Shown here: positions 53,292-57,190 of the stretch, piece by piece | Layout: the number at the start of each line of letters is the position of its first letter | How positions within the stretch are numbered: the first letter of the stretch is position 1 | Source: Enterococcus crotali | GTDB lineage: Bacteria > Bacillota > Bacilli > Lactobacillales > Enterococcaceae | Direction of reading: 5' to 3' | NCBI RefSeq assembly: GCF_000633635.1 | Contig: NZ_AYPQ01000006.1 | Coordinates: 203,458 to 267,457, forward strand | DNA length: 64,000 nt | Notes under the pieces: generated by a model | Databases searched by the model: none | Told to the model about the DNA's origin: nothing | The model's input: the letters and a program-made list of their open reading frames with translations, nothing else | Position numbers and translations under genes: made by a program

Positions 53292-53401
53292 AGTAGAATC
53301 CTTCTTTCTAACAAAGTGAACCGTTTTCTTAAAGAATAGCACAAGCCTGCTCTGAACGCATATAAATAGGCTGATTTGTTTGCGTTTCTTGCAAAAAAAA
53401 C

Positions 53402-53444
53402 GAACCCGGAACAAAAACTAAAAATCAGTTTTGTTTCAGGTTCT
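53402..53444 (-). terminator. Terminator after the LCP gene (repeat-family hairpin)
   Basis: GAACCTGAAACAAAAC / GTTTTTGTTCCGGGTTCG followed by TTTTTTT on the minus strand. Nearly the same as the glpF terminator. Confidence 0.85.
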
Positions 53445-53496: not shown

Positions 53497-54411
53497 TTAT
53501 TGATCTTTCATAAAATCCTGAATTGCTTCAGCATTCTTTTGTTCATCAAGCTCGATCACGCTTCCAGATTCTGTATAATCATTAAAGTTCCATGATCCTT
53601 CTACTGGGACAGATAACGATTTTAATGGCTTCACTTTGCCAGAAAGAAAATCTTTCGCCAAATCAATCAATAAACTCGTTGGTACATTTGTGTCGATTTT
53701 CCCAACCATTTTCCCAGCTACTTGAGGTAGTTCCCAAACTGGAATCAAATCTTTAGATTGCTCAACCAAAGCATCCATCACTTGCTGTTGGCGTCTGATC
53801 CGGCCAAAATCGCCTTCTTCATCCATTCTAAAGCGTGCATACTGCAGTAAGCTATTACCATGTAAGGTTTGTTTTCCTTTTAAAATATCTACACCATCTA
53901 AATTGATATCTTTTTCAGAATCGATCGTGACTCCTTTTGGATAAAGCTCATCGATAATATCACTGAACTCTTTGAAATCCATGACAACATAATAATTGAT
54001 CGGTAAACCAAAATTCGTTTTGATCACATCTTTGGTCATTTGTGCGCCACCATATGCGTAAGCTGCATTTATTTTATCTTGTCCGCCATCAGGGAAAGTC
54101 ACATAGCTGTCCCTCATGATCGAAACCAATTTAGGCTGTTTGGTTTTCCCATCATAGTGAGCAACCATCAGTGTATCTGAACGACCTTGATCTTCATCAT
54201 CATCTCTAGAGTCATTCCCTACGACCATGACGGTCAATTCCTTATCACTCGCTTGTTCATCACCAGTAAAATTTTGATTCTTATTAGGAAGTTTTGATTC
54301 GCTCTCTTCTTTAGCCGTTTGAAATGAAATAGCCGCATAGCAGCCTGCACTGACAACGATAAGGAGAATCGATAATAAGGTAATAATCATTATTTTTACA
54401 GATTTTTTCAT
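53497..54411 (-). CDS. LytR-CpsA-Psr (LCP) family protein
   Basis: 304 aa type II membrane enzyme. One N-terminal helix (about 5-28) and an extracellular LCP domain (about 55-280). It has GNDSRDDDEDQGRSDTLM, SIMRDSYVTFPDGGQDKINA and RRQQQVMDAL, the Arg/Asp residues that hold the polyprenyl-phosphate. Family members attach teichoic acids or capsule-type glycopolymers to peptidoglycan. Its leader is an M-box Mg2+ riboswitch with terminator, an unusual control for this family. A palindrome lies between terminator and start. Confidence 0.92.
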   Translation of the reverse strand: MKKSVKIMIITLLSILLIVVSAGCYAAISFQTAKEESESKLPNKNQNFTGDEQASDKELTVMVVGNDSRDDDEDQGRSDTLMVAHYDGKTKQPKLVSIMRDSYVTFPDGGQDKINAAYAYGGAQMTKDVIKTNFGLPINYYVVMDFKEFSDIIDELYPKGVTIDSEKDINLDGVDILKGKQTLHGNSLLQYARFRMDEEGDFGRIRRQQQVMDALVEQSKDLIPVWELPQVAGKMVGKIDTNVPTSLLIDLAKDFLSGKVKPLKSLSVPVEGSWNFNDYTESGSVIELDEQKNAEAIQDFMKDQ

Positions 54412-54458
54412 TGTTTATTCCTTTCTACACATAAAAGTTGGTAAGGTAATCTCACTCA

Positions 54459-54476
54459 TGAAACGAAATCGTTTCA
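54459..54476. promoter_or_regulatory. Perfect palindrome in the LCP leader
   Basis: TGAAACGAAATCGTTTCA, two eight-base arms with a two-base centre, between the riboswitch terminator and the LCP start. Could be an operator or an RNA hairpin; nothing ties it to a known regulator. Confidence 0.45.
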
Positions 54477-54490
54477 ATCTTTACTTGGAT

Positions 54491-54531
54491 AAAAGAAAAA
54501 TCCCTCACCAAGAACACTCAGCGAAGGGATT
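54491..54531 (-). terminator. Riboswitch-associated intrinsic terminator
   Basis: AATCCCTT / AGGGATT stem with 18-base loop followed by TTTCTTTT, downstream of the M-box aptamer and upstream of the LCP gene. Expected to form at high Mg2+. Confidence 0.75.
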
Positions 54532-54585
54532 AGATTACAGGGTTAAATTTATGACACTCGCCATTTATTTTCAACTTACCTTGAT

Positions 54586-54745
54586 CTTCTCTTCGTTGAG
54601 TTTTAGCACTATATAACGTAAAAAGCATTGCCTTTAGCTACTTTGAAAAACGCCTTAATTCGACGAATTTTGTCCTACCCGTACCTGTCTTTCGACATTT
54701 CTGAGCAGTAGCCTGTGTTTATATAGGAGCCTCACCTAACAAGTA
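54586..54745 (-). promoter_or_regulatory. M-box (ykoK) Mg2+ riboswitch
   Basis: On the minus strand the conserved M-box blocks appear in order: TTAGGTGAGGCTCCTATATA, GCTACTGCTCAGAAATGTCG, AAAGACAGGTACGGG, ATTAAGGCGTTTTTCAAAGT, AGCTAAAGGCAATGC and AGTGCTAAAACTCAACGAAG. This is direct recognition of the family's primary sequence. It is followed by a terminator and then the LCP gene. M-box RNAs normally control Mg2+ transporters; none is in this operon. Confidence 0.92.
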
Positions 54746-54760
54746 TTTAATTCATTTTAA

Positions 54761-54789
54761 ACTATAAGCGTATCCAATCACAAAGTCAA
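54761..54789 (-). promoter_or_regulatory. Promoter of the M-box/LCP transcript
   Basis: TTGACT (54784-54789), 17-base spacer, TATAGT (54761-54766). The expected start near 54754 is just upstream of the aptamer. Confidence 0.7.
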
Positions 54790-56338: not shown

Positions 56339-57190
56339 ATGAAATTTTTTAAAGGTATGATGGTTGCAGGTTTAGCAATCAGTTTATGTTCTGCTAGTTT
56401 GTCAGCGGTGGCAAGCCCAGCAGACGCAGCAACAGTCGTGGAATCAAATTACAATAAGACTATCACTTTATTCAATAAAGCAGATATCTTAGAGTACACA
56501 GGGTTATCATTAACTAGTTCAAATGTATCATCTGTTTACAACGAATTAGTTAAAGCAAGTACATGGGAAGCGGCTGGTTATAGTTCATCAGAAGCAACTG
56601 TGATTGCAAGAGATTTCGGTAGAAACTACTACAAATCAGTAAACTTGTTACAAAAAATGACGTATCAAAAAGATTTACACCTTAAAGTTATCTTGATTAC
56701 AAAAGGATATGTAAAAGCAGAATTTGGTTTACAATCATACTATGTACCAGAAACTGAAGTACCAGAAACTGAAGTACCAGAAATCGATGTTCCGGAAGTT
56801 GATGTACCGGAAGTTGACGTTCCTGAAGTTGAGGTTCCTGAAACTGAAACACCAGAAGTTGAAGTTCCTGCTGCAAAATCTGATTTGAAAAAATTAGAAA
56901 TCCAAGTAACATACAAAACTGGTCAACAAATCCAATTACAATATCAAGTAAATTCTAATGGAACTGTTAAAGCACAATACCAAGACAAATCAAACAAAGT
57001 TCAATTACAAGGTAGCGCTGCTGAAACTAAAATCGAAGGAATCATCGCTGGCTTAGATTTAAAAAATGGTAGCGAAAAAACAATCACTTCACACATTTTA
57101 AACAAATTAGGCCGTGGCACAAGCTACAAACAATTCCAATACCAAGGTCAATTTAACGATAATACACAAGTTAAATTCAAACTAAAATAA
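56339..57190 (+). CDS. Secreted protein with VPEV repeats and YusW-like domain
   Basis: 283 aa. Signal peptide about 1-30 (ending ADAA); a helical domain (about 35-130; ILEYTGLSLTSSNVSSVYNE); a stalk of ten or so VPE-x-(D/E)-type five-residue repeats (about 135-178); and a C-terminal YusW-like domain (about 180-283; LEIQVTYKTGQQIQLQYQV, then ILNKLGRGTSYKQFQY). No anchor motif, so secreted or loosely attached. AGAGGAGG lies upstream of the ATG. YusW function is unknown. Confidence 0.78.
   Translation: MKFFKGMMVAGLAISLCSASLSAVASPADAATVVESNYNKTITLFNKADILEYTGLSLTSSNVSSVYNELVKASTWEAAGYSSSEATVIARDFGRNYYKSVNLLQKMTYQKDLHLKVILITKGYVKAEFGLQSYYVPETEVPETEVPEIDVPEVDVPEVDVPEVEVPETETPEVEVPAAKSDLKKLEIQVTYKTGQQIQLQYQVNSNGTVKAQYQDKSNKVQLQGSAAETKIEGIIAGLDLKNGSEKTITSHILNKLGRGTSYKQFQYQGQFNDNTQVKFKLK

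Follow-up and report, generated by a model that had tools for sequence, protein, structure and literature searches.

A predicted Mg2+ M-box riboswitch precedes a LytR-CpsA-Psr gene of Enterococcus crotali within a putative enterococcal wall-gene regulon

M-box RNAs are described as turning genes off at high Mg2+ (PMC4072509, PMC12810186) and, apart from Nramp-related exceptions, as lying in nearly every case before corA, mgtE or mgtA (PMC4072509); the papers cited here are used through excerpts, and what is said of them refers to those excerpts. What, then, is an M-box doing in front of a LytR-CpsA-Psr (LCP) gene in Enterococcus crotali? The attachment of wall polymers is the presumed role of LCP proteins. 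The locus lies in a stretch of 64,000 nucleotides of contig NZ_AYPQ01000006.1 (the window). On its reverse strand a promoter, an M-box, an intrinsic terminator and an LCP gene follow one another. All four had been claimed in a sequence-only reading of this DNA, and all four were recovered. Judged by sequence, the unit is real and conserved, and belongs to an enterococcal set of M-boxes before wall genes, which in the faecium clade extends to the pbp5 operon. The riboswitch class is known; the target class, wall enzymes, is new, and the proposal lends itself unusually well to testing.

The aptamer occupies positions 54582–54750 (−). The covariance search suggested by the sequence-only reading (cmscan) matches 54750–54582 to the whole RF00380 model, positions 1–169, at 142.3 bits against a gathering cut-off of 44 (E = 3.8e-32). 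It is the sole Rfam match at gathering threshold in the whole window. A chance or false M-box is ruled out by the 142-bit score and the conserved unit. Just upstream, a sigma-70-type promoter, TTGACT-17-TATAGT, lies at 54761–54789 (−) and matches 10 of 12 consensus positions. Between 54380 and 55000 there are seven promoter-like sites, where shuffled sequence would give 2.6; all 17 orthologous leaders have TTGACT or TTGACA-17-TATAGT at the same position (the window and 16 others, aligned together). Downstream of the aptamer, folding and alignment place the terminator hairpin at 54499–54531 (−), followed by a U-rich tract. Its predicted folding energy is −16.8 kcal/mol for a 56-nt region and −16.3 kcal/mol in a separate leader scan. 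The LCP gene (53497–54411, −) encodes 304 amino acids. These elements and their order are read directly from the DNA, as are their conservation and the genes behind the M-boxes described below.

Two short segments link aptamer and terminator. The P1 3′ strand, CTCAACGAAG (54591–54600, −), is also the 5′ half of a predicted antiterminator and makes 9 pairs with 54517–54526. The segment at 54517–54526 (−), CTTCGCTGAG, is complementary to CTCAACGAAG and serves both as the antiterminator 3′ half and as part of the terminator 5′ arm. The CTCAACGAAG/CTTCGCTGAG duplex has a predicted energy of −14.3 kcal/mol, with z of −4.0 relative to 50 shuffled arms. Sequence and folding together give the platform expected of an M-box, in which P1 and the terminator compete through an antiterminator; this is the predicted layout of a ligand-OFF riboswitch. 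Conservation follows the same elements. Averaged over the columns of the 17 leaders, identity reaches 0.994 in the P1 3′ strand, 0.99 in the terminator 5′ arm (CCCTTCGCTGAG), 0.968 in the aptamer and 0.936 in the terminator 3′ arm, compared with 0.739 in the linker and 0.704 in the spacer. The antiterminator pairing is possible in 98.7% of cells in these 17 sequences.

The distance from the U-tract to the ATG was measured in 16 of the 17 leaders. It is 36–40 nt in ten, 58 nt in one and 77–103 nt in five, with 79 nt in the window. The 36–40 nt of those ten leaders leave little room for a further promoter behind the terminator, and one is unlikely there in most orthologues. In the 79-nt spacer of the window, where the best promoter match is 8 of 12, one is possible. 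In the window, sequence inspection also finds a perfect inverted repeat, TGAAACGATTTCGTTTCA (54459–54476, −), between terminator and start codon. Its role as an essential element is not supported, since inspection by eye shows no such repeat in the aligned part of the 16 other leaders, which ends 140 nt past the aptamer.

From the known M-box mechanism, Mg2+ is most likely the ligand, and control most likely runs OFF at high and ON at low Mg2+. Transcription from the promoter at 54789–54761 would start a leader that contains the M-box. With ample Mg2+ the aptamer would compact and P1 would hold CTCAACGAAG, leaving CTTCGCTGAG free to form the terminator and stop transcription before the LCP gene. 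With scarce Mg2+, P1 would open, CTCAACGAAG would pair with CTTCGCTGAG, the terminator would be blocked and the LCP gene would be read.

The product has a single Pfam family, PF03816 (157.1 bits, cut-off 24.6). Among NCBIfam models, its score passes the cut-off of TIGR00350, the LCP domain model (117.4 against 62.3), and stays below those of the matched equivalogs, for example TagU (153.8 against 441). The LCP residue pattern R-X-D-X(20)-R-D...R-X-R-X(4,7)-D-X(2)-R-X(2)-R-Q of PMC5059904 is present, with the middle gap searched at 80–110 residues where PMC5059904 gives 91–103. Similarity places the protein among relatives of enterococcal LcpA/Psr, and it is a putative Psr-like ligase that would join glycopolymer to peptidoglycan. 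Membership of an operon with pbp5 marks the LcpA/Psr subgroup, and the window LCP is not in such an operon. The sole MecA_N-type PBP gene detected in this genome is at C1:423897, on another contig than the LCP gene (C6).

The E. crotali genome has six M-boxes and four LCP genes. Three M-boxes precede TIGR01524-type MgtA loci, one of them with MgtC first. The other three precede envelope loci, namely the window LCP, a PAP2 gene with an LCP piece in two frames, and an FtsW/RodA pair (L014, contig C3). The sequence-only reading had proposed an LCP gene in place of an Mg2+ transporter. This holds for the window, where the first gene behind the M-box is LCP, but it does not extend to the genome as a rule, since half of the six M-boxes precede Mg2+-transport genes. 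At the PAP2 locus (L011:7286-8907, contig C1), the PAP2 phosphatase and LCP are split into two reading frames; 11 relatives have a single open reading frame (ORF) of 520–547 amino acids there. The split may reflect a loss or a sequencing error.

The same division runs through the genus. We compared the downstream regions of all M-boxes in 22 genomes, E. crotali included, with a reference set; gene classes are BLAST matches to this small set (E. crotali and a few loci), checked in part by Pfam. M-boxes occur in all 22 genomes, 95 in total. Envelope genes follow 49 of them, Mg2+-transport genes (MgtA, MgtC, MgtE) follow 45, and one has another gene behind it. The envelope set comprises 17 window-type LCP genes, 14 LCP-FtsW-RodA operons, one LCP of the LCP-FtsW-RodA type alone (G012), FtsW-RodA without LCP in three genomes (E. 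crotali, G006 and G014), 11 single-ORF PAP2-LCP genes (520–547 amino acids), two PAP2 genes alone and the split E. crotali locus. The LCP of the G001 LCP-FtsW-RodA locus is a piece of 138 amino acids that the PF03816 search does not list. In G007 and G011 only the PAP2 part stands behind the M-box. The lowest-scoring genus M-box (L131, G016:C6:62713-62881, 94.8 bits) has a GntR-type regulator as its first sizeable downstream ORF.

The window-type unit is present in 17 of the 22 genomes. A survey of M-box/LCP adjacency, which the sequence-only reading had suggested, was made both within the genus and among named genomes. Of 98 genus LCP genes, 43 have a same-strand M-box upstream within 2.5 kb, with the LCP domain 356–1151 nt behind it, and in no case does an M-box lie that close in a different arrangement. 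Among 78 FtsW/RodA-family (SEDS) genes, the 34 behind an M-box are the accessory pairs of 17 genomes; the remaining 44, two per genome, are without one. In the named genomes, 15 of 25 LCP loci have an M-box just upstream. Nine of these, at 85–94% identity, are from E. plantarum, E. moraviensis, E. ureilyticus, E. caccae, E. ureasiticus, E. quebecensis, E. termitis and two strains without a species name, and six others are at 61–62% identity. The other ten loci, two of them remote metagenome matches, have no M-box within the fetched flanks.

A quick tree was built from 48 chosen LCP sequences, 37 with an M-box and 11 without; those with an M-box were picked for having it. The tree retains one of the two remote metagenome matches, as outgroup, and omits the other. 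The window LCP falls in a branch of 13 (support 97) with the LCP of the LCP-FtsW-RodA operon. This branch, a Psr branch of 12 (94, all with an M-box) and an M-box-free branch of nine (95) meet at an open fork. The M-box-free branch is probably LcpB-like, judging from its long N-terminal part. Compared with the window LCP or its paralogue, Psr proteins show 49–58% identity and the M-box-free proteins 42–50%. PAP2-LCP and a distant LCP pair form separate branches, all with an M-box. The M-box label changes three times on the tree (twice without the outgroup), compared with 10.1 in shuffles. Because the sequences were chosen, the tree shows clustering of the M-box label and not its full history.

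M-boxes are present in 101 of 105 Enterococcaceae genomes. For a wider view we collected 186 leaders: 106 comprising all 95 genus M-boxes and 11 hand-picked ones, and 80 hand-picked from about 150 of the best-scoring matches listed, so that unbiased fractions are those of the genus. A terminator lies within 330 nt in 164 of them. In other Enterococcaceae genera, 51 regions hand-picked from the best-scoring matches listed have 27 envelope, 22 Mg2+ and two other targets. In other families, the 40 hand-picked regions divide into 32 with Mg2+ genes only, two with envelope genes only, two with both and four with other genes. The two with both are L214 and L215, out of five fetched loci of family f7; each has an M-box followed by an MgtA-like ATPase and two SEDS genes. 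The E. faecalis genome G022, whose PBP4 fragment differs very little from PDB 6bsr, which we take to be from E. faecalis, has five M-boxes, one of them before PAP2-LCP. In another enterococcal genus, the distant LCP type stands behind an M-box (L153 in G032, L159 in G029) and is about 36% identical to PAP2-LCP. Five M-boxes outside the genus (L171, L187, L197, L220 and L222) have no reference-family match within reach and are possible orphan units or may have other targets.

The association extends to the faecium clade (genus g4, the 15 genomes G043–G057). In nine of them an M-box lies upstream of a MecA_N/PBP5 gene, six times in the order M-box, SEDS, LCP, PBP5 and three times as M-box, LCP, PBP5. 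The PBP assignment was checked by Pfam for two and against PDB for four. The PBP5 fragment of G046 matches PDB 6mkg, presumably from E. faecium, at 660 of 662 residues by manual count of the alignment. In this genome the M-box (G046:C1:1235733-1235899, leader L254) stands directly before ftsW-psr-pbp5, and the same operon directly follows the M-box at L244, L245, L246, L252 and L253. G022 and the 15 g4 genomes together have 44 M-boxes and 65 LCP genes, and 17 of these genes follow an M-box within 4.2 kb.

A promoter and a palindrome are described upstream of E. faecium ftsW in PMC13148053. Leader L254 has TCGAAA, a 19-nt gap and TATATT, the two hexamers standing 101 and 76 nt ahead of the start of ftsW, as well as the palindrome GAAAAGGT-N5-ACCTTTTC. 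Compared by description and not by sequence, they fit those of PMC13148053. The proposed −35 element lies within the M-box terminator hairpin (−15.9 kcal/mol), just behind the aptamer. The palindrome consists of the 3′ half of this hairpin and the first bases of the T-tract, and the proposed −10 element comes directly after it. The palindrome motif is exact in six of the nine g4 leaders and differs by one letter in the other three. The PBP5 match and the fit of the leader to the published description together indicate that G046 is either E. faecium itself or a very close sibling. The g4 operon appears to be the penicillin-resistance operon of E. faecium.

M-boxes before FtsW/RodA, PAP2-LCP and the operon of PBP5, a class B transpeptidase, point to a broader Mg2+-linked wall-building programme and not to a single case. 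The sequence-only reading had Mg2+ tuning glycopolymer attachment. A conserved M-box with a termination-type platform does precede LCP, but attachment as its purpose is a conjecture; the riboswitch class also stands before these other targets. We consider it quite probable that the window carries an M-box OFF switch on an LCP gene within a low-Mg2+ wall-building regulon. Such a regulon would raise Mg2+ handling (MgtA, MgtC, MgtE) together with an auxiliary wall set of Psr-like LCP, PAP2-LCP and accessory FtsW/RodA, and in the faecium clade also PBP5. This set would sustain polymer synthesis and attachment once Mg2+ is too scarce to stabilise the wall or to meet all the needs of the housekeeping enzymes. 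Both the enzyme activity of the LCP and this physiological reason are putative.

With somewhat less assurance, we favour a wider proposal. An enterococcal Mg2+-riboswitch regulon would couple peptidoglycan synthesis and the attachment of wall polymers to the supply of Mg2+, and ftsW-psr-pbp5 of the E. faecium clade, with the beta-lactam-resistance determinant PBP5, would be under an Mg2+ OFF switch; the terminator of this switch would be what the literature describes as a palindrome and promoter. Mg2+ limitation would then be the natural signal for accessory FtsW2, RodA2 and PBP5. FtsW2 and RodA2 are reported as active polymerases upregulated through CroS/R, and the discussion of PMC12724132 asks which natural condition needs them, naming "altered pH or metal availability". 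Mg2+ limitation offers a testable answer. A Mg2+ riboswitch before psr and its relatives would give psr a physiological setting, one before a beta-lactam-resistance operon would be a new control point to study, and the known range of M-box control would widen from ion transport to wall construction.

A narrower explanation, that of the sequence-only reading, is that LCP alone matters, low Mg2+ raising the attachment of anionic wall polymers that hold Mg2+ at the wall. LCP proteins are regarded as wall-polymer attachment enzymes (PMC5059904), and the window unit is a single gene whose product shows the LCP residue pattern. Directly behind the stop codon, at 53393–53443 (−), a hairpin and a T-run can be read by eye, so the gene is probably monocistronic. 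However, genus M-boxes also precede FtsW/RodA pairs with or without LCP in 17 genomes, and g4 M-boxes precede PBP5 operons; the SEDS and PBP families are not known to attach polymers. The four scanned neighbours of the window LCP encode an oxidoreductase, an Mga-type regulator and two DUF proteins, none of them a polymer synthesis gene. We regard this explanation as possible and rather doubtful. Unrelated to the riboswitch, positions 56339–57190 (+) of the window encode a secreted-looking protein of 283 amino acids with a run of V-P-E type repeats.

It is also conceivable, and in our estimate unlikely, that the aptamer senses another divalent ion such as Mn2+, or that the wall genes are mainly under envelope-stress control of the CroS/R type and the leader only tunes them. 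E. faecalis ftsW2-rodA2 depends on CroR (PMC12724132), higher levels of ftsW, psr and pbp5 accompany croS variants in E. faecium (PMC13148053), and Listeria ftsW2-rodA3 responds to CesRK and beta-lactams and not to MgSO4 or EDTA (PMC6686043). Yet the same genomes have well-scoring M-boxes before MgtA, MgtC and MgtE, conservation of the aptamer is near complete, and control at the promoter and in the leader can coexist. Passive copying of M-box cassettes before wall genes, with an adjacency of no regulatory meaning, is very improbable: the window LCP does group with that of the LCP-FtsW-RodA operon, so leader and gene may have duplicated together, but aptamer, antiterminator strand and terminator arm are 97–99% conserved against 70–74% for linker and spacer, and the association recurs with several LCP branches, SEDS genes and several genera.

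Several observations weigh against an Mg2+ OFF switch acting across a wall-gene regulon. Some concern the platform. Within the LCP class (17 leaders) the antiterminator pairs hardly vary and show no covariation; the terminator is paired in 90.2% of cells in the 17 sequences, with weak covariation. The 186 leaders together give an antiterminator signal of modest strength: z has a median of −1.5, and 76 leaders lie below −1.5. In the E. crotali genome, the terminator search gave none for the SEDS leader, and the PAP2-LCP leader has a weak, distant terminator at +151 without an antiterminator signal. Others concern distribution. The window-type unit is missing in five of the 22 genus genomes, and in G016 no M-box precedes any LCP. 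None of the five M-boxes of E. faecalis G022 lies upstream of its accessory SEDS pair (C1:1139289-1141524), presumably ftsW2-rodA2, and the pair was dropped as a further M-box target. The remaining points are published ones. Besides the CroR dependence noted above, a Listeria Plmo2689-lacZ fusion in BHI, which may or may not include the leader, did not respond to 300 μg/ml MgSO4 or to EDTA (PMC6686043). In E. faecium, variants in nusG and rpoB lead to more PBP5 but not to more pbp5 transcript (PMC13148053), which a pure attenuation model does not predict.

In the open-licence literature, with the hits opened in part, no report of an M-box/LCP pairing was found; nor was an open-licence paper found that brings M-box riboswitches together with rodA, or with magnesium and the Enterococcus cell wall. 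PMC7701990, which mentions Enterococcus, pbp5 and riboswitches, has no bearing on the question. The excerpts of PMC3766115, PMC2211319, PMC9495176 and PMC12121620 give no M-box/LCP link. The terms "riboswitch" and "magnesium" are not found in those of PMC5059904, and these two and "leader" are absent from the text of PMC13148053. A term search of PMC6686043 gives neither "riboswitch" nor "M-box".

Among known systems, the B. subtilis ykoK/mgtE M-box (RF00380) shares the aptamer family and the transcription-termination platform with the window. It differs in its target, which in the window is an LCP wall gene and not a Mg2+ transporter; the usual target is customary rather than defining. The mycobacterial pe20/PE-PPE M-box also has a target outside the three classical transporter families (PMC12810186). 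There, however, the target is thought to be part of Mg2+ uptake and the platform is translational and Rho-dependent, whereas the window has a wall enzyme and an intrinsic terminator. The Listeria operon lmo2689-ftsW2-rodA3 (lmo2689-lmo2688-lmo2687) has an MgtA-like gene and two FtsW/RodA genes, the gene order found behind the M-box at the two f7 loci; it is without LCP and is described as a CesRK operon (PMC6686043). The E. hirae operon ftsW-lcpA-pbp5 encodes LcpA (Psr), which binds peptidoglycan (PMC5059904). The G047 LCP has the same length as LcpA, 293 amino acids, and shares 56.7% identity with the window LCP across residues 49–291. An M-box precedes the SEDS-LCP-PBP5 operon of G047, just as one precedes the window LCP, which in contrast to ftsW-lcpA-pbp5 stands alone.

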